Program-made: the position numbers and the translations under genes | Notes under the pieces: model-generated | The model's database searches: none | The model's input: only the letters and a program-made list of their open reading frames with translations | Told to the model about the DNA's origin: nothing | From: a virus | IMG/VR virus record: IMGVR_UViG_3300048597_000154 | Coordinates: 1-42,718 of that record | Reading direction: 5' to 3' (one strand) | Length of the DNA stretch: 42,718 nt | In this document: positions 3,821-36,392 of the stretch, piece by piece | Layout of the letters: each line of letters starts with the position of its first letter | How positions within the stretch are numbered: position 1 is the first letter of the stretch

Positions 3821-6208
3821 TCATCCAGCGACGACTCGGCCGGTCTTACGTCGCATGATCACCCGATCGTCACCATTCGGCTGGTAGACCAGATCGACGG
3901 TGCCCCAGCTTCCGGGAATCATGGCCGCCGTGTGAGCCGAGGTGACAACGGCCCGGATCGTCCAGGCGTCGGCATCGACGACGAGAACGTTCTCGGCGTC
4001 CTCGTGATCGAAAACGAGCGGAGCGGACAGGCCGAACCCGGTGTAGACGACACTCCATTCGTCTTCGGCCGTTGGATCAACCGGGACATCGTCCGCACTG
4101 AAAAGCCAGTCACGCCCCTCACCAACGGCGATTATTTCGGTCTCTCCGTACGGCACGGATGATGGGGCGGTCGTGTCGAACCCAATCGCTCGCACACCAA
4201 TGACTTCGTCTTCGCTGGGCAACGGCACCGCGGATCGACGAGGTCCGATGGCATTCCGGCCGGAGCGGGGCAAGCCGTCGGCGTCGTATTCGAGGGCGTG
4301 TTCTTCGCCGCCGAACGTGACGTACGAATCGGTGTCGAGCACCAAGTCGTCGGGCACACCTTTGCCGCCGATTTCTTGAAACACTTTGTAGGACGGGTCT
4401 TTCGTCGTGTAGTCGCCGCCGGCAATCAAACTGTTGACGAAATAGCGGCTCATCCCGCTGTACGCGCACTCTTCCGTGTTGAAGCCGAACCACACGGCAT
4501 TGTGGTAAAGATTCACCCGCCGCACGGGGCTGGATCGGTTCAGAAAGACGCAGCGGTTCGCGATGTAGCTTGCCCCCGGCGATGTCCCTTGCGAGCGCTG
4601 GTGGCTCACCCAGGCGAACTGACCGGCCAAGACATTTTTCGTTTCAAAAAGGCAATGAAACATGCTGGCGAGAATGCTCGCGACGGGGGTGTACCAACTG
4701 GTGATGTCCGACGCGGGCCTGGATGAGTCGAGTCCGCAATCCACACTGATCGTGCAGTTGATGTGATTCGAGGTGAGCATCCCGGCATTGATCGGATTCC
4801 CGGCATTCGTGAGCGAACCGAGTTGCGTCATCCCGACGTAAGAATTGATGATGAATTGAGCATCGCCAAGTCCGCTGGCCGACCATTTATTCAGTGAGTC
4901 GAAGTGGCCTTCGTTGATGTACTTTTGCCGGTGCGGGATAGAGCAGTTTACGATAAAGTGCCGGCACGCCTCGATGTCCGTCCCGGCATCGCTCATATCC
5001 CCGAAGCCGCCGAAGTTGGTGATTTGGCCCGGCGTCGCCGTCGCGTGGCACTCATAAATCACGTCGAGCAGCGTGACGTAAGGTGCCCCGCTCGTGTGCG
5101 AAATAAAGGCCGTCCCGCCGTCGAGCGCATCCGGCCGCGGGATGTAGCCACCGAGCACCGCGACGTGCGAGCAGAACATTTCCGTTCCGCCTTCGAGACT
5201 GTTCGCGGTGATGAGGACGGCCCCGCCTTGCGACGATTGCCAGCCGACCGAGCAGTTATCCACAAACAGAATCACGCCTTCGTACGAAGGCTGCGAGCCG
5301 GAGCCGGACGCGGTGACGATATGATGCCGCGAGCAGTAGGTGATGCAGGAGTCGAGGACGTACAGCGTCGCGTCGCCATATCCCCGCAGGTGGATCGCAT
5401 TGCCCGCGGTGCCGTCTGCTCCGTAAGGGCCGATGCAGACGCCCGATATTTCCACGCCGACGACCGCGACTTTGCCCGTCGCGAGCACGCCCGTCGTGTT
5501 GTTGTTCCCGATCATCGCCTGTGTGAACGTCGGGTCTGGCGTGAGGCATTCGTAATATTCGAGCAGTTGCGAGCGAGTCGTATAAGGCCGGAAGTAGAGC
5601 CGGCCGTCGCCGGCATGATTGACCCAGCACGTTCCAGGGGCCGCATCGACTTCGGCGATTGACGAGACGTGCCGGAAGGCCACGTCCTTACGGCCGTACA
5701 GGCGGATTGTGTACCACGATTCCGCGCCCGGCTTGGCGACGCTGTAGGTGTTCGCGAACGCATCGGCGCGAGTGACCGACGTCTCAAACGAACTCAACTG
5801 GACCGGCGTCTTCCAGCGGTTGAAGAACGGCAAGCCGAGCGTCTGATCGCCGTAGTTCGTGACCGCGACGTTGTACTTACCGGAGAAATCCAGCTTCCCC
5901 TCGCCGGCCGTATCGGGCTGCCAGATGTCGCCGCACTTGAACTTGAGCACGAGGCCGGAAACATCGTTGCTCCACGCCGCCAGAATCGCCTGCGCGGCTC
6001 CGATGGTTTTCTTCGGCGTGGCGTCTGTCAGTCCGTCGTTTGCATCCAGGCCCGATGTCGAGAAGTAATAGACCGTCTCGCCTTCGAGCATCGCGAGAGC
6101 TTCCGCCCGGCGTGTGCGGCGGAAGGTTTCACACCAACGAAGGAATTCAACCGTCGTGCATTTCGGCACGGTGGCGAGCTCGGGAATGTCGTAATAAAAA
6201 TTGCTCAT
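3821..6208 (-). CDS. Tail spike / receptor-binding protein, beta-helix
   Basis: 795 residues. After a short N-terminal segment the motif YYFSTSGLDANDGLTDATPK marks the start of a right-handed beta-helix of the pectate-lyase type, as found in many phage tail spikes and polysaccharide depolymerases. The central 500 residues are rich in short beta-strand repeats with N, C and G turns. The last 150 residues look like a separate beta-sandwich. It is by far the largest tail gene and lies at the distal end of the tail operon, right before the exported-protein cluster. It probably recognises or degrades a surface glycan of the host. The substrate cannot be read from the sequence. Confidence 0.8.
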   Translation of the reverse strand: MSNFYYDIPELATVPKCTTVEFLRWCETFRRTRRAEALAMLEGETVYYFSTSGLDANDGLTDATPKKTIGAAQAILAAWSNDVSGLVLKFKCGDIWQPDTAGEGKLDFSGKYNVAVTNYGDQTLGLPFFNRWKTPVQLSSFETSVTRADAFANTYSVAKPGAESWYTIRLYGRKDVAFRHVSSIAEVDAAPGTCWVNHAGDGRLYFRPYTTRSQLLEYYECLTPDPTFTQAMIGNNNTTGVLATGKVAVVGVEISGVCIGPYGADGTAGNAIHLRGYGDATLYVLDSCITYCSRHHIVTASGSGSQPSYEGVILFVDNCSVGWQSSQGGAVLITANSLEGGTEMFCSHVAVLGGYIPRPDALDGGTAFISHTSGAPYVTLLDVIYECHATATPGQITNFGGFGDMSDAGTDIEACRHFIVNCSIPHRQKYINEGHFDSLNKWSASGLGDAQFIINSYVGMTQLGSLTNAGNPINAGMLTSNHINCTISVDCGLDSSRPASDITSWYTPVASILASMFHCLFETKNVLAGQFAWVSHQRSQGTSPGASYIANRCVFLNRSSPVRRVNLYHNAVWFGFNTEECAYSGMSRYFVNSLIAGGDYTTKDPSYKVFQEIGGKGVPDDLVLDTDSYVTFGGEEHALEYDADGLPRSGRNAIGPRRSAVPLPSEDEVIGVRAIGFDTTAPSSVPYGETEIIAVGEGRDWLFSADDVPVDPTAEDEWSVVYTGFGLSAPLVFDHEDAENVLVVDADAWTIRAVVTSAHTAAMIPGSWGTVDLVYQPNGDDRVIMRRKTGRVVAG

Positions 6209-20254: not shown

Positions 20255-20485
20255 TCAAAACAATGTTAATTGCTTTTCGATCTCTTCGCGATGTGTTCGA
20301 ACCATCATGGCAATATGCTGTTTCGGATTTGGATTTTCAGTCGTTGATGATTGATTCTCGCACTTCGTACATATGCGAGTTCGGATCGTCGATCCTGTTT
20401 CGAGGTGAATGGTTGAAATGACGCGAGTCTTCGCCCGGCAGTGCATGCAGGTTGCCGCTCCCCATTTCGAACCTTTTCGCTTCAT
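20255..20485 (-). CDS. NrdR-like zinc-ribbon protein
   Basis: 76 residues. CMHC at the N-terminus and CTKC 27 residues later make a zinc ribbon. The spacing and the pattern TRVISTIHLETGSTIRTRIC resemble the zinc ribbon at the start of the transcription repressor NrdR, but the ATP-cone domain is absent. The ATG overlaps the terminase stop by four bases. Base composition is visibly more AT-rich than the flanking late genes, as in the neighbouring intein. A DNA-binding or late regulatory role is likely. Confidence 0.7.
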   Translation of the reverse strand: MKRKGSKWGAATCMHCRAKTRVISTIHLETGSTIRTRICTKCENQSSTTENPNPKQHIAMMVRTHREEIEKQLTLF

Positions 20486-23400
20486 GCGCGACTCCCGACG
20501 GAAATGTGTCTCGAACCAGGTCGAATGTGCTTTCGCGGTTCCCCCGCCGCACGCTGTACTGCCGCTCTCGGTGCCGTCGCAACTTCAATCGCGGCGCTCG
20601 CGCTGTACCGCACGCCCAAGATCGACGCCGCGACGGCAGCGCCGACCAGACAATTCCCGCACACTGCAATTTTCCCATTGCGACGAACGATAAGCGTACC
20701 ATTGGGGACGCTCGCGCAGTAGACAGTTCCCTTGTATGGCACCCTGCGAAAATTCGGCTTGTTCTTGGAATCGCGAAGCAACTCGCATTTCATTGTTTTT
20801 CGATGAACATGGAACTGTTCTCGACTGATGCCAGTCCTTCCTCTCATGGCGTAAGGCTTTGCAGGTCGAGTTCGCATCGATACCGCATACCCCGCTTTCA
20901 ACCAAAGCTCCGTCATGTCGTCCGCGAGGCCACGGCAAACGGTTGCGTATGCTTCGGCAGTACGATCTCGCCAGCCATCTCCATCAACAGCTGAAGAAAG
21001 ATAAGCGTTAATAACTTTTATCGGAGCATCTTTGATCCATTGCGGCACTCTCTTTTTGTCGCGATTCCCAAGAGTTGAAACCAAGTCATATGCCTGGCGG
21101 TTTGAAATAACGAACCCATTTTTTTGCTGATGAAATTTCCAAGGAAACGAACTAAGTAAATCTCGGATACGATCTGCTTTTTCGCCATGATTTTGAGAGA
21201 TGACCACTCGATACGTTCCGTCAACAAACCCACAGCTTCCCTCGGTGATGTACCAACCGTAGAACGAGGCCATCCGATCGGCTGGAACTTTAACTTGCGG
21301 GTGATGCGATGTCGCTGGGATCGTGTAATGAGTTCGCCCGTCACCTCTCCATTTCGCTGACGTTTTTACTCTGTCCCAAATGCTAAGTTCATCAGCTTGC
21401 CGAATCGTTGGATTTTCTACAGTTTTTTTGCCGTAGACCACCATCCGATGAGTTGGCGTAACCAGCATGTCGAGCCGACTATATTTGTCGCCGCCGATTT
21501 GAATCATCTCGCCAGAATATTTCTTTTTCACCAATGCTGTCGGACGTTGATACTCGATTAAGTCTGTATCCAGATTGACCGTGGCGACTTCATCGTCAAC
21601 AGTGAGACTAGGAAATTGAACCCAACCGCCGCGAGTTAATACGTCCATATCCCTACTATAGCAATCCCACCAGTGATTCTCAGCCCCGGCCGACAGCCGC
21701 CACTCGTCGACCTTTCTCCCCCGCCCCTCGGTCTGCACTGGCCGTTCGCTTGCCAAGTGTTCCGCGAATAACCGATGCGTCGACGGCGGCTTCTTCCCAC
21801 CGTACAGAACCAGACACCCGCCGTCGCCGTCCGGCGTCTTCATCCGGTCCGCCGTAAAGCTCTTCCACCAGTTCGTATCGTACGTCACGAGTCGCCCGCG
21901 GGCCTTCTCGGTCGAGACGCCGATCCGCCAGCTCGGCCCCGCGATCTCACCTGGCCGCTTCTGCCATTCCGCCATGGGTCGGTCGCCGGCCCGGATGCCC
22001 CGGCCCTGGCTCGGCAGCAACACGCTCGCCCAGGCTGACCGCCGACAGAAGCCATGCACCGTCGCGTTCGACTTCCCCCACGCGGAATCGACCAGCGCCC
22101 GCTCAATTCGCAGTCCTGGTCCACCCCCTTCACGCGGGTACTCCCGGCTCAATACCTCACTTCCAACCTTTTCCAGGCCCTTATAAATCGCGGCCTGCTC
22201 GCTCACACCGGGGAAGAGGTCGGCCAAGGATGGGCGTGGGTCGATCGCCGTGAAGTGCGAGCGATTCTGCGGAGGCCATGTCCCGTAATCGATCACGGCA
22301 CCGCTGAACCGGACATCCCACGCGACGACGATCCAATACAGAACCTTTTGCTGCACGTCCACGAACGCCGTGATCCTCGAGCAATCCCTCGGCACCGTCG
22401 CCCTGGTCAATTCCCGGCACCGGCCGAACACGTCCTCAACCGTCAAGGCCTGCGCAGCCTGGCTCGCCCGCGGATCGTCCGGCTCGTTCTGGTACTCCGC
22501 ATTGAACACCGCCGAGTTCGCGAACTTCAAGTTCATGCAATGCTGGACTGCCGAGATTTCGTCTTCGTTGAACCTTTGCTCCCACGCCACGACAGCGCCG
22601 GCGTCCATTTCCGCCCGATTCTCGCGATAGAATTCGGTCGCCCTGGTCAGCCCCAAGCCGGCCGCCAGATCATCACCGCGAATCTCCGCGTACTCATCCC
22701 ACCGTTTCACCGCCGTCGGCGGACTCACCAGCAGTTTTCCCCGCGTACCCTGCCACGACGGGTACGTCCTGCGGTCCAGAATCTGGTCGACCATGTCGCC
22801 GCGGACGATCACTGTGCACGGCATGACGGCCGCGATCTGCTTTCCCGGGCCGGCCAGGCCGATGACGTCACCCTCCACCAGCTCCAGTCGCACCGCACAT
22901 TGGCTGACCGACCGGGCCGACTGCTTTGTCTGCGGATCGTCGATCACGACCATGTCGGGCCGGATGATCGTTCCGTCGCCTGGTGCATGCTGCATCCCCC
23001 GGATCGCGCCCGTCATCCCCCGGGCCACAATCACCGATCCGCTCGCCGGCGAGCCATAGATCGTCGGGAAGATCAGCTCGTTGTCCGTCCACGTGATCCG
23101 CGTTCGTTCGCCTCGGTACGTCTGCCCGGCCGTCCGGTTGTTGATCCCTTCCAACTTCCGGATCGCGTAGCACACCTCGGGGAAGTCCGCGGCGAGCAGC
23201 TCGTTGGTCTCGATCTCGACCTTGATCTGCCGGAGGAGCTTCTTGGACAAACCGCCAGTCGCGGCCAGGAACACCAGGTACCGGCGATGCCCGTAGATGA
23301 CGGCCCAGATCACCGCGACAACGCAGAGCGTCGTCTTGCCGAACCCACGAGGCAGAGCGAACGCGAACCGGCCGCCCTCAAGGACGCACCGCTCAATCTT

Positions 23401-23610
23401 CGAAATGGAATCGAGGTGATCGACCGACCAGTCGAGCGGGAACCGGTCTCGAAAGTATTTCTCGTTGAACGTTCGAAGTGATCGACGGCCGGCCTTCTTT
23501 CGACGAGGGTTGGCCACGGGTGGCAGCTCCCCGATTTCCTTCCCCTCGGTGGACTTCGCGCGTTCTCGCTGCGCGGCTCGTTTTTTGTGGGCTTCGTAAT
23601 CCTGAGCCAA
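20482..23610 (-). CDS. terL: Terminase large subunit (GpA-like) with intein
   Basis: 1042-residue precursor; 705 after splicing. TTG start at 23610 with GGAG upstream. The N-terminal ATPase has Walker A LPRGFGKTT (86-94) and Walker B MVVIDD (220-225). The nuclease domain ends in AENHWWD-CLVGAAVAAS, the conserved C-terminal Asp motif of GpA-like terminases. This motif is split by the intein after D649. Terminase cuts concatemers and pumps DNA into the prohead through the portal. It is the first gene after the repeat-rich non-coding region, so late transcription probably starts there. No small-subunit gene was identified directly upstream. Confidence 0.9.
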   Translation of the reverse strand: MAQDYEAHKKRAAQRERAKSTEGKEIGELPPVANPRRKKAGRRSLRTFNEKYFRDRFPLDWSVDHLDSISKIERCVLEGGRFAFALPRGFGKTTLCVVAVIWAVIYGHRRYLVFLAATGGLSKKLLRQIKVEIETNELLAADFPEVCYAIRKLEGINNRTAGQTYRGERTRITWTDNELIFPTIYGSPASGSVIVARGMTGAIRGMQHAPGDGTIIRPDMVVIDDPQTKQSARSVSQCAVRLELVEGDVIGLAGPGKQIAAVMPCTVIVRGDMVDQILDRRTYPSWQGTRGKLLVSPPTAVKRWDEYAEIRGDDLAAGLGLTRATEFYRENRAEMDAGAVVAWEQRFNEDEISAVQHCMNLKFANSAVFNAEYQNEPDDPRASQAAQALTVEDVFGRCRELTRATVPRDCSRITAFVDVQQKVLYWIVVAWDVRFSGAVIDYGTWPPQNRSHFTAIDPRPSLADLFPGVSEQAAIYKGLEKVGSEVLSREYPREGGGPGLRIERALVDSAWGKSNATVHGFCRRSAWASVLLPSQGRGIRAGDRPMAEWQKRPGEIAGPSWRIGVSTEKARGRLVTYDTNWWKSFTADRMKTPDGDGGCLVLYGGKKPPSTHRLFAEHLASERPVQTEGRGRKVDEWRLSAGAENHWWDCYSRDMDVLTRGGWVQFPSLTVDDEVATVNLDTDLIEYQRPTALVKKKYSGEMIQIGGDKYSRLDMLVTPTHRMVVYGKKTVENPTIRQADELSIWDRVKTSAKWRGDGRTHYTIPATSHHPQVKVPADRMASFYGWYITEGSCGFVDGTYRVVISQNHGEKADRIRDLLSSFPWKFHQQKNGFVISNRQAYDLVSTLGNRDKKRVPQWIKDAPIKVINAYLSSAVDGDGWRDRTAEAYATVCRGLADDMTELWLKAGYAVSMRTRPAKPYAMRGRTGISREQFHVHRKTMKCELLRDSKNKPNFRRVPYKGTVYCASVPNGTLIVRRNGKIAVCGNCLVGAAVAASILGVRYSASAAIEVATAPRAAVQRAAGEPRKHIRPGSRHISVGSRA
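20653..21663 (-). mobile_element. Intein with LAGLIDADG homing endonuclease inside terminase
   Basis: 337 residues. Block A starts with C1 (CYSRDMDVLTRGGW). Block B has the T69-x-x-H72 motif (VTPTHRM). Two LAGLIDADG-type motifs follow: FYGWYITEG (134-142, acidic E141) and YLSSAVDGDG (221-230, D229). Blocks F and G read VYCASVPNGTLIVRRNGK and IAVCGN, then the +1 Cys of the extein. The penultimate residue is Gly where most inteins have His, and the block F His is replaced as well. Insertion is exactly at the conserved WWD|C nuclease motif. The segment is clearly more AT-rich than the flanking exteins, which suggests recent arrival. Confidence 0.92.
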
Positions 23611-23745: not shown

Positions 23746-23804
23746 TTATTGCCCCGCATGAATGACGCAAGCCATTGATGATAGAATCTATTGCCACGCA
23801 TGAA
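23746..23804. repeat. 17-bp direct repeat pair
   Basis: TATTGCCCCGCATGAAT at 23746-23762 recurs with one change as TATTGCCACGCATGAAT at 23788-23804, 42 bases apart start to start (about four helical turns). Both copies lie 136-195 bases upstream of the terminase start, which suggests binding sites for a late regulator. Confidence 0.6.
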
Positions 23805-23919
23805 TACGCGGTTTTGCTAGTGTTTTTGCAAGTCCGGCGCGAGAGATGGGAGCGAGCCGGACACTGGTATGATACCTGTATTTGCTTTGCGTTGCAATGG
23901 CCGTTCTGATTCGACCTCG

Positions 23920-24219
23920 GTGACACATGGTGACACATGCGCTAAGACGATGTGTCACGCTCTAACGTCTTGCCTTGCATGCCGTTAAGCAAAAGGTGAC
24001 ACATGTGACACATGATTTCCCATTGTTTAAAATGACAGAGAGCATTCTTGGCTTATCTTAGGACTGTTGCCTTATCTGCTAACCTCCCAATGTCAGACCC
24101 TTTAATAGGGATTTATGTGTCACATGTGTCACCTTTGGTGTAATGCCTTTGGTAGCAAGGAATTAAAACGGTGACACATGATTTAATTCATCTGTCACCG
24201 ATGTGTCACCATGTGTCAC
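23920..24219. repeat. Array of ten GTGACACAT / ATGTGTCAC sites
   Basis: Exact forward copies start at 23920, 23930, 23996, 24005 and 24171. Exact reverse copies start at 23950, 24115, 24124, 24201 and 24211. Partial copies lie at 24191 and 24220. Several are paired at 9-10 base spacing (one helical turn). The core GTG-W-CAC is itself symmetric, so a dimeric protein could bind each site. Position next to the primase/helicase genes suggests iterons of an origin. Position upstream of the terminase also allows a role as late operator. Confidence 0.85.
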
Positions 24220-24343
24220 CTGTCACCGTCGGTGTCGTTGGATTAGTCTGCTGTGAGATGCAGAAATGGGCCTTCTTGGGCCTTGTGTGCAAGGTGCGAT
24301 ACTCGAGTGCAGAACGTGAGATGTTGCTGTGTATGACGAACGA

Positions 24344-24607
24344 TTAACTACTGCTGCTGGAACTGGTCGACCCGTTTCGACCCGTTTCGACCCGTTTCGA
24401 CCCGTTCACGCTGTTCGTGGTTGTCGTTTCACGTCCCGCCCGTTGCGTCGGATCGCCGGCAGTCCGGCACGCTCGCGGCCCAGGTCTGTCGCGTTCGTAT
24501 TCGGCAGCGGCGAGCCGGGCGCGGAGTTCGGCAACAAGTTTGTCGCTGGCCTTGTCGATAGCCTCGCGTAGTTCGTTCTTCGTCGGTATTCGGAAATCGT
24601 CGCTCAT
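24344..24607 (-). CDS. Small helical protein with repeat-encoded tail
   Basis: 87 residues from the ATG at 24607, chosen for the purine-rich GGGGGAAGGGA ahead of it rather than the ATG 19 codons upstream. The first 40 residues form a charged helix (PTKNELREAIDKASDKLVAE). The C-terminus runs through the 10-bp tandem repeats and a Ser-rich end, so it is low complexity. It follows the helicase gene by 35 bases. The N-terminal part could be a small DNA-binding or coiled-coil module; the family is not recognised. Confidence 0.55.
   Translation of the reverse strand: MSDDFRIPTKNELREAIDKASDKLVAELRARLAAAEYERDRPGPRACRTAGDPTQRAGRETTTTNSVNGSKRVETGRNGSTSSSSSS
24367..24406. repeat. Four perfect 10-bp tandem repeats TCGACCCGTT
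   Basis: Four head-to-tail copies with no change. A 10-bp period puts all copies on one face of the helix. They lie within the 3' end of a short gene, but 10 is not a multiple of 3, so the repeat is not kept by selection for a peptide repeat. They flank the 9-mer array and may belong to the same origin or control element. Confidence 0.85.
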
Positions 24608-26649: not shown

Positions 26650-27445
26650 TAGGCACCTCGATTATTTCCGCACGCCGCCATGGTCGGCCGGGCGATTCTG
26701 TTTCACCTTTACGCACCATCGTTCCGGGAACTTTCAGCATGCGAGACGCGGTGTACGTGTTCGTGTCGAGCGTCAGGAAGCCGGGGCAGGTGTACCGGTG
26801 GGCCAAGCCGCGGAGCAGCTCGGCAAGCGGGTCAATCTCGGCCGGGAAGTACGGGACGGGTGATGATAGGCGGAAAACGAGGTGGATCCCGTTGCCTGAC
26901 ATCATCACGACGGGCGCTGACCAGCCTTGGTGAACGAGTTCGCCGGTGAGCTGCTCGGCGATGCCCTGGGCGAGTCGGATTTCCTCGCAGGTGGCCGGCT
27001 GCTTTTGCTCTGCCGGCGGGAGTGCTGTTCGATAGTGCCCAGGACGGATCGGCTTCGATTCCGGATCGCTTGCCGGGTCGGATTTCTGGAACCGTACAGG
27101 GTCGAAATCGACGATGAGATACCGCCGCTCGATCACGTCGCGGTCGGTCGTCAATTCGATCCGCTGCGGTGATTTCTTCGGCGGTACGTTCGAGCAGGTA
27201 TTCGGCCGGCGTGCGAGCAGGGCCGGGTCGATTGGATTCGGGATGAAGTAAACGCCGGCGGCTTCGCGTGAGAGTGCGAGAGCATGCCGGGCCATGTCCC
27301 GCAGGTGGTCGTAGTGGAAAAACCCGGCGAACGTCCGCCATGGCCCACCCACGTGCAGGGCGCGAAGCTCCGTCACTTGGCCCGGGCGGATGAAAATCCG
27401 GAGGCCAGCGGCGACGGTATCGGGTGTGGGAGCTGGTTGGGTCAA
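26510..27445 (-). CDS. Archaeo-eukaryotic-type primase (AEP/PrimPol)
   Basis: 311 residues. The AEP metal motif D113-x-D115 lies in YLIVDFDPVR, the nucleotide-binding S-x-H motif in SGNGIHLVFR (S183-H188), and a third acidic residue D227 in LTLDTNTYTASRMLKVPGT with MVRKG after it. This order is diagnostic of small-subunit AEP primases. It starts at a TTG overlapping the sigma factor stop. The last 45 codons are shared, in another frame, with the helicase start. It makes primers for phage DNA synthesis; no phage DNA polymerase was found, so the host enzyme must extend them. Confidence 0.85.
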   Translation of the reverse strand: MTQPAPTPDTVAAGLRIFIRPGQVTELRALHVGGPWRTFAGFFHYDHLRDMARHALALSREAAGVYFIPNPIDPALLARRPNTCSNVPPKKSPQRIELTTDRDVIERRYLIVDFDPVRFQKSDPASDPESKPIRPGHYRTALPPAEQKQPATCEEIRLAQGIAEQLTGELVHQGWSAPVVMMSGNGIHLVFRLSSPVPYFPAEIDPLAELLRGLAHRYTCPGFLTLDTNTYTASRMLKVPGTMVRKGETESPGRPWRRAEIIEVPNGWDSECTTANASTDAHADVEPRTESPGRIDPHAVEDHSRVEVVTG

Positions 27446-28176
27446 TCTATTCCCGATCCTTGAATCGTTTCGCGGGCTCTTAGTTGTTCGTGAAGCTGGG
27501 CCATGGCACGCTGTTCAATCTGTCGCACTCGTTCCTTCGAAATCCCCAATTCCTCACCGATTGAATGAAGTGAGGCAGGATCGCCTCTGTTAATTCCAAA
27601 TCGGCATTCGATGATCGTACGATCGCGTGATGGCAGCCCAGCCAATGCCTTCTGGATGTATTTTCGAATCGCCTCGATACGGTCCTTTTCGTCAAGTAGT
27701 TCGGTATCCTGCTTCGGATCGGCCAGTACGCTGATCAGTTCATTTACATCGCCTTCGCTGTTGGAAATCGGAGCGTTCGCACTAACGAGCTTAGCTCCGT
27801 TCATTGGCTTCGCTGAATCCTTGCCATAGTGCGTGGCCTTCTGGACGGCCTGTCGAATGCCCCACACGGCGTAGCTTGCAAACTGAACCGGCTTGCCATT
27901 GACCAAATGGTTTGGGTTGAATTTCTTTGCTGACTTTAGGACCCCCTGCCATGCAATCTGGTGGATCTCTTCGTCGTCGAACCCAAACGCTGACGCTGCT
28001 CGATAAGTACCAATCGACACTCTGCGAAGGACAGCAGTGAGGTTCGGCCACTGTTGGCAGTAGTCATCGCAAAGCTTTCTCTGCTCGGCTGTCAGTGGCT
28101 CGACTGGGGTTTCGCCATCTGTTCGCGGCCGAATGACGTTAGGTCGTACTTCCCCTCCGGAGTTTTTTGAAACCAT
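27442..28176 (-). CDS. Phage-encoded RNA polymerase sigma factor (sigma-70 family)
   Basis: 244 residues from the ATG at 28176; a GTG start at 28215 is also open. A region-2-like part (FDDEEIHQIAWQGVLKSAKK with VQFASYAVWGIRQAVQ) is followed by a clear region 4: LAGLPSRDRTIIECRFGI, then LHSIGEELGISKERVRQIEQ, the canonical helix-turn-helix that binds the -35 element. The N-terminus overlaps the winged-helix gene by 85 bases. It probably redirects host polymerase to phage late promoters. Sigma factors of this full type are uncommon in temperate siphoviruses. Confidence 0.88.
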   Translation of the reverse strand: MVSKNSGGEVRPNVIRPRTDGETPVEPLTAEQRKLCDDYCQQWPNLTAVLRRVSIGTYRAASAFGFDDEEIHQIAWQGVLKSAKKFNPNHLVNGKPVQFASYAVWGIRQAVQKATHYGKDSAKPMNGAKLVSANAPISNSEGDVNELISVLADPKQDTELLDEKDRIEAIRKYIQKALAGLPSRDRTIIECRFGINRGDPASLHSIGEELGISKERVRQIEQRAMAQLHEQLRARETIQGSGID

Positions 28177-28580
28177 GCCGAGTTGAGGTATCTGGTGACC
28201 GATCCCCTTGGGCACTGCGCCGCTACAATTGCGTCGGTCATTCTGATTGGCCCGTTCTTTTGGATCGCCTGTCCGATAAGTCGTCTCTTGAATTCTTGGT
28301 TGCTGGATCGCCCCAGAGAGGTTTTGGATGACGAAGAAGGCGAGCTGCTCGACTTGCTCAACGCCGGCGACGGAGAACGGGCCGCCCTGCCCGGACTGTC
28401 CAGAGCGGCCTTCGGTTTTCCCGATAGCACGTCCCCACCGACGAGCGTTCGTAGAGCTTTGAGGAAATCGGCCACGGCCTGAAACTGGATAATCCGCTCA
28501 TCGATGACGGCTAGTCGATCGACTCCTGGACGCTCTAGCTCATGAAGTAGGTTTGTCGCTGCCTCGATCGACATCGTCAT
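28092..28580 (-). CDS. Winged-helix DNA-binding protein
   Basis: 162 residues. An N-terminal helical region (ERIIQFQAVADFLKALRTLV) is joined by a Ser/Pro-rich linker to a C-terminal winged helix. In this domain FKRRLIGQAIQKNGPIRMTD, AIVAAQCPRGSVTRYLNS and a short wing WFQKTPEGKYDLT are visible. AGGTAA precedes the ATG. It is a likely regulator, and its overlap with the sigma gene suggests coordinated expression. Confidence 0.75.
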   Translation of the reverse strand: MTMSIEAATNLLHELERPGVDRLAVIDERIIQFQAVADFLKALRTLVGGDVLSGKPKAALDSPGRAARSPSPALSKSSSSPSSSSKTSLGRSSNQEFKRRLIGQAIQKNGPIRMTDAIVAAQCPRGSVTRYLNSAWFQKTPEGKYDLTSFGREQMAKPQSSH

Positions 28581-36137: not shown

Positions 36138-36365
36138 CTATTTCAACTCCGCCAGCCAGTTCTCGATGTCCTTCCGACGCCAGCGAGGATTCCCGCCAAG
36201 GCTCGCGATGTGCTTCGGGAAGTCACCGCGAAGCCGCCAGCGGTCGAACGTCGATTCGCTCACGCCAAGGAGCTGGGCCGCGTCCGACACGCCGACAAGC
36301 AGCGGAGCATTCGCCGCGGCTCTCACGGCCTTGACCAGCTCGGCACCGAACGTCATCGCTTCCAT
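36138..36365 (-). CDS. AlpA/excisionase-like helix-turn-helix protein
   Basis: 75 residues from the ATG at 36365; a second ATG at 36356 is possible. The domain LLVGVSDAAQLLGVSESTFD with RWRLRGDFPKHIASLGGNPR and WRRKDIENWLAEL is the winged MerR-type helix-turn-helix of excisionases and AlpA regulators. In a temperate phage it may act as excisionase or early regulator. It lies downstream of a strong hairpin at 36393-36426. Confidence 0.8.
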   Translation of the reverse strand: MEAMTFGAELVKAVRAAANAPLLVGVSDAAQLLGVSESTFDRWRLRGDFPKHIASLGGNPRWRRKDIENWLAELK

Positions 36366-36392
36366 CTGGCCTACCCTTCCCACCCCGACCAA

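Follow-up and report, generated by a model that had tools for sequence, protein, structure and literature searches.

We assigned the repeat array in this virus record, with a probability of roughly 0.8, as a phage replication origin of the type represented by P4 crr/ori and PICI pri-rep-ori. Support for this iteron-origin reading comes from the layout of the array, from precedent in P4 and PICI and from related loci. As in P4/PICI-type origins, iterons occurred in both orientations, formed two sets flanking AT-rich DNA and lay at the 3' end of a helicase gene. The window, i.e., the whole 42,718-base stretch that was analyzed, is a 42.7-kb virus record, and its gene content is that of a temperate tailed phage with head genes of its own; matches were found to integrase, RecT, ERCC4 nuclease, RecD2-like helicase, methyltransferase, a sigma-like protein, terminase, portal and head protease. 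The features discussed below are listed in Table 1.

Table 1. Features of the array and its surroundings in the window; a sign after a site start gives its orientation.
Feature	Position	Strand	Description
Terminase gene	20482-23610	-	large subunit
Left iteron block	23920-24013	none	GTGACACAT at 23920+, 23930+, 23950-, 23996+, 24005+
Central AT-rich spacer	24014-24114		101 bp, 60% AT; candidate DNA-unwinding element
Right iteron block	24115-24227		GTGACACAT at 24115-, 24124-, 24171+, 24201-, 24211-; degenerate minus copies (CTGTCACC) at 24192-24199 and 24220-24227
Small ORF	24344-24607	-	87 aa; between array and helicase gene
Tandem repeats	24367-24406		TCGACCCGTT, 10 bp, four exact copies; at 3' end of small ORF, near array
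P0001	24643-26649	-	predicted initiator helicase, 668 aa; SF3-type core
P0002	26510-27445	-	predicted primase; AEP-like motifs VDFD, SGNGIH, LKVPGT, by eye
Sigma-factor-like protein	27442-28215		encoded in window
Excisionase-like HTH protein	36138-36392		encoded in window

An inverted iteron array around an AT-rich centre

The 9-mer GTGACACAT occurred exactly 10 times in the window, five times in each orientation and always within 23920-24219; scanning of all 42,718 bases gave no exact copy outside this interval. In dinucleotide shuffles of the window (n = 100), its mean count was 0.27 and its maximum 2. The initial annotation had reported ten sites, five per orientation, with less than one expected by chance, and both statements were borne out; the objection that the 9-mer might be equally common elsewhere fell away with its absence from the rest of the window. 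Four pairs of sites had starts 9-10 bp apart, approximately one helical turn, in agreement with the pairing described initially, and the remaining two sites were single. When the two degenerate copies were added, the count of GTGACA in the array reached 12.

The array formed a near-perfect dyad, with the order ++-++ in the left arm and --+-- in the right arm, the latter followed by the two degenerate minus copies. Its outer arms (23919-23938 and 24201-24220) showed perfect complementarity over 20 nt, and its inner arms (23958-24024 and 24104-24170) were 70% complementary. No rival 7-mer cluster in the window exceeded four copies in 400 bp, and an Rfam search gave no match. The array itself was gene-free, as had been noted, but a plausible small ORF separates it from the helicase gene. 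Between the array and the terminase gene, we also observed a near-identical 17-nt pair, TATTGCC(C/A)CGCATGAAT, at 23747-23763 and 23789-23805; these are possible regulatory sites.

The AT content of the central spacer compares with 40% for the window, and among windows of 101 bp only 0.7% were as rich in AT; the 100 bp from 24016 ranked fifth among the least stable non-overlapping stretches of the window. The spacers in related arrays measured about 50-160 bp, most of them 80-120. GC skew, proposed initially as a check for an origin, was -0.12 over the 3 kb to the left of the array and +0.08 over the 3 kb to its right; the step at the array was within the largest 3.5% of the window's steps, with the peak at 23400. 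This sign change near the array fits a bidirectional origin, but gene composition could equally produce it.

The predicted helicase and primase genes beside the array

The genes to the right of the array are transcribed toward it, in the order small ORF, P0001 and P0002. P0001 comprises a PriCT-like segment (about residues 72-156), an SF3-type core (about 385-490) with the motifs GSGKS, FDN, TAN and R, and a predicted winged helix (about 580-651). In alignments of P0001 with its relatives, Walker A GxGK[ST], Walker B with DN, the sensor N and the arginine were invariant. The match of P0001 to DUF5906 was weak (E 4.3e-4; 21.3 bits, under the Pfam cut-off of 27.6). We read P0001 as an SF3/D5-type helicase because the DUF5906 profile also recognizes the helicase core of P4 alpha (2.5e-9), VapE-type proteins and further helicases from this analysis. 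The same profile gave E 0.011 for the relative P0018 and no match for P0007. The VapE-like helicase family PF05272 had no match in the window, P0001 included, and profile comparison of P0001 with the A2 helicases showed no significant similarity. Residues 72-156 aligned to the part of the primase-helicase P0014 that comes after its primase domain (hhalign E 2.5e-8).

The C-terminus of P0001 was predicted to have the order helix-strand-helix-helix-strand-strand, which is that of a winged helix, with a core pLDDT of 65-79; the full-length structure model was poor (pLDDT 44.6), too low for use. Foldseek returned mostly winged helices, none of them significant (E 0.17 or worse). The C-terminus of P4 alpha is a solved winged-helix origin-binding domain (1KA8); this entry was not among the top 50, and the Pox_D5 winged-helix domain of P4 alpha had no detectable sequence match in P0001. 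We consider the predicted C-terminal winged helix of P0001 a putative origin-binding domain.

P0002 had no match in the profile library, Prim-Pol and RepB-primase families included, and a scan for its homologues found no relative; in L024 and L207, the two relatives, the genes that occupy the equivalent position gave matches to a DNA primase family. Among the ORFs scanned, which were part of the window's ORFs, there was no match to a polymerase and none to Rep initiators of the RepA, pi or TrfA type. The initial statement that no initiator of known iteron type is encoded was nevertheless misleading, as an SF3-type helicase gene and a primase-like gene adjoin the array. The helicase appears to be of the P4-alpha or PICI pri-rep initiator kind rather than the plasmid RepA kind; therefore, the small regulators and the sigma factor proposed initially as binding proteins are not the best candidates.

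Elsewhere in the window, the terminase large subunit showed an apparent intein at about residues 653-990 (HWWD/CYSRDMDVL...TPTHRM...GKIAVCGN/CLVGAAVAAS). Similarity was found between this segment and mycobacteriophage gene 3 proteins of the HNH/nucleotidyltransferase type, and there was a weak match to an intein-containing model.

Arrays in relatives and in other phages

Searches of viral contigs and genomes for P0001 homologues found little with single-protein or two-sequence seeds; a search with an alignment restricted to the core found L207. The helicase of L024/L035 was 26% identical to P0001, and GTGACAC sites were present at its 3' end. The helicase of L207 was 39% identical in the core; on that 37-kb record, GTGACRC sites (17869+, 17978+, 18050+, 18133-) lie on either side of the 70 bp with the highest AT content. 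This array is 7 kb away from the helicase gene, and a terminase-like ORF follows it at a distance of 3 kb. Both detectable relatives carry GTGAC iterons, which answers the initial concern that related phages might lack the array. The type of iteron therefore goes with the helicase even when the array lies elsewhere. No GTGAC array was seen in Psychrobacter plasmids that encode a related helicase. In L078 (Virus Rctr197k), AGTGAGC repeats on both strands at about 5040-5330, just past a P0001-related helicase gene, may represent an iteron array of variant sequence.

Pattern scans of viral contigs for the 9-mer gave many contigs with a pair only and a set with true arrays, the G+C of the array-bearing contigs being about 0.4-0.7. 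Many of the arrays were found where a DUF5906 or VapE helicase gene ends (3' end) or shortly beyond it, namely in L014, L019/L042, L045, L026/L032, L024/L035, L070, L030, L052/L053/L055/L068/L071 and L060; L009, with its array upstream of the helicase gene, was an exception. A marine-type group (L010, L011, L043, L031 and similar ones; records G002, G003, G035, G023 and G020) had small GTGACAC arrays with no SF3 gene detected. In this group, GTGACACATAG-GTGACACAT and GTGTCACTGTGTCACC faced each other, and downstream of them was a small gene read as terminase-small-subunit-like. The pair pattern had 25 matches in 84,980 bacterial and archaeal genomes; these were rejected as arrays, as none had at least 5 sites in 400 bp. 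Comparison of the array region with phages by blastn gave chance matches only.

Of five named phages that were checked, two showed an array at the helicase 3' end: the cultured Lactobacillus phage LFP01, in which a GTGACAC array begins at the helicase stop codon, and TMW 1.1397 P1 with ACACTAA. No clear array was found at this position in Leuconostoc phiLNTR2, Bacteroides BF486P2 or Parabacteroides PM21P2. The Latilactobacillus phage TMW 1.1397 P1 (L222) carries seven ACACTAA sites at 1902-2140, at the 3' end of its annotated helicase gene.

We then surveyed VapE-type SF3 loci independently of motif. Of 80 loci, 74 were measured once near-copies had been left out, and 62 remained after dereplication; the position of the strongest 7-mer cluster of each locus was recorded, with a threshold of at least 5 copies in 400 bp. 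A caveat is that the phages supplying the three seed proteins had been selected by motif, although most retrieved loci were 25-40% identical to the seeds. Of the 62 loci, 37 reached the threshold with one 7-mer, compared with 7 of 222 trials with shuffled loci, and about 40% of the VapE loci had no clear array. In 29 of the 37 loci, the cluster was located between -200 and +600 relative to the helicase stop, whereas 4.6 would be expected by area, and 27 of these 29 were in both orientations. The gaps between blocks of sites were mostly 80-120 bp and usually, though not always, AT-richer than the locus. Iteron sequence varied by phage (GGTACAA, GGAACAA, GGTTACA, GTAACAC and others). GTGAC was the most recurrent 5-mer (5 of 28 after removal of the three seed proteins), with a chance of about 6e-7 that applies to a pre-chosen motif. 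A general rule that every iteron contains GTG, as a priming site, was rejected, since most surveyed iterons are without it.

Origin reading, precedents and alternatives

One of the closest known systems is P4. According to the P4 annotation, crr begins 46 bp beyond the stop of alpha, and it lies on the side of its gene that corresponds to that of the array here; the array here starts 424 bp past the P0001 stop with one small ORF between, which is looser. The type I repeats of crr, GGTGAACA, are in both orientations and 9-10 bp apart. A further six type I repeats, together with three type II repeats of 10 bp, are present in P4 ori, which lies 4.6 kb from crr. In both systems, the iterons measure 8-9 bp, begin with GGTGA and occur in both orientations at 9-10 bp spacing, just past the 3' end of a primase-helicase or helicase gene, and alpha also matches DUF5906. 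The period of the TCGACCCGTT tandem repeats recalls the type II repeats of P4 ori, which are likewise tandem and 10 bp long. However, the iteron is GGTGACACAT here and GGTGAACA in P4, the P4 sites are split between ori and crr whereas a single array is present here, and alpha is one protein with a Toprim-type primase whereas the helicase and the AEP-like primase are separate genes here.

In PICI, the origin directly follows the 3' end of rep, the initiator gene, and always has two iteron sets around an AT-rich region; ori deletion lowered replicon function (PMC6092414). The PICI/SaPI pri-rep-ori module resembles the present locus in its order of primase, initiator helicase and ori and in the two iteron sets that flank AT-rich DNA; the iteron sequences are unlike, and the likeness to PICI Rep is drawn from layout, not from a specific protein match. 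In addition, PICI are satellites, whereas the window is a temperate tailed phage with head genes and an integrase. Phages with VapE/VirE (PF05272) or DUF5906 helicases, e.g., LFP01, share a GTGACAC array in both orientations around AT-rich DNA, but VapE helicases form a family of their own, to which P0001 shows no match. In pRN1, an essential region lies directly downstream of orf904, and the ORF904 primase starts at GTG (PMC4234260). This system has an AEP primase, an SF3 helicase and a winged helix in the same domain order; its origin differs in being a large stem-loop without iterons.

The initial annotation had left the choice between an iteron origin and an operator. Layout, precedents and related loci favour the origin, and a multi-site operator, at which a repressor or activator would regulate the late genes, is improbable. 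Such an operator could be suggested by the position of the array ~300 bp upstream of the terminase ORF, by the sigma-factor-like and excisionase-like HTH proteins encoded in the window, and by the marine-group arrays upstream of a small gene read as terminase-small-subunit type. However, 10-12 sites over 300 bp in a dyad around a 101-bp AT-rich gap would be an unusual operator layout, sigma-70-like matches were few and mostly within the spacer, and related arrays track the 3' end of the SF3 gene, whichever gene comes next. A packaging site (cos/pac) bound by terminase would agree with the order helicase, array and terminase seen here and apparently also in L014/L019/L045, and with the terminase-like ORF 3 kb from the L207 array. 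We regard it as very improbable, as P4 and PICI arrays of the same layout are origins, and in LFP01 and the VapE loci the array is followed by small unrelated genes and no terminase. The least probable alternative is a partition (centromere-like) or incompatibility array, or an array for another protein with another role; it would be consistent with the presence of repeated sites in both orientations, and P4 crr is itself a second cis-required region besides ori, but no partition protein was present among the ORFs scanned (part of the window's ORFs).

Several observations count against the origin reading: the DUF5906 match of P0001 under the Pfam cut-off, its poor full-length model and the non-significant Foldseek matches, the 424-bp gap with its small ORF, the L207 array 7 kb off and the L009 array upstream of its helicase gene, the marine-group arrays, and the VapE loci (about 40%) and named phages (three of five) that showed no clear array.

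If the array is an origin, we propose that the C-terminal winged helix of P0001 would bind the GTGACACAT iterons, with two protomers per 9-10 bp doublet. P0001 may form one oligomer per dyad arm and then melt the 101-bp AT-rich centre, after which the primase-like P0002 would prime; the host replisome would probably extend two forks. GTGAC iterons might also be used twice, the SF3 winged helix reading them as duplex and an AEP-type primase reading GTGA in the melted strand for priming. This idea arose because pRN1 ORF904 primes at GTG and the NrS-1 PrimPol at GTGA, its primase site (PMC8718748); it is speculative, because most surveyed iterons are without GTG, and we consider it unlikely. If true, dual use would couple origin recognition to primer synthesis through one code, and would explain both the recurrence of GTGAC across very different SF3 phages and the preference of such primases for it.

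An origin of the P4/PICI type is an already known kind. The wider rule, an origin at the 3' end of the SF3 gene in many phages with GTGAC recurrent, may be less well recorded: we found no open paper stating it, the subscription literature on P4 and SaPI origins being outside the search, and no paper in the open literature on GTGACAC or GTGTCAC as phage origin repeats. The present analysis proposes a concrete pair of origin and initiator for a phage lineage to which the phage and plasmid records searched offered no close relative. The survey suggests a rule by which the origin is an inverted iteron array around an AT-rich gap just past the stop of an SF3/VapE helicase gene, and the paired helicases and diverse iteron sets provide material on how winged helices choose their DNA and on the recurrence of GTGAC.
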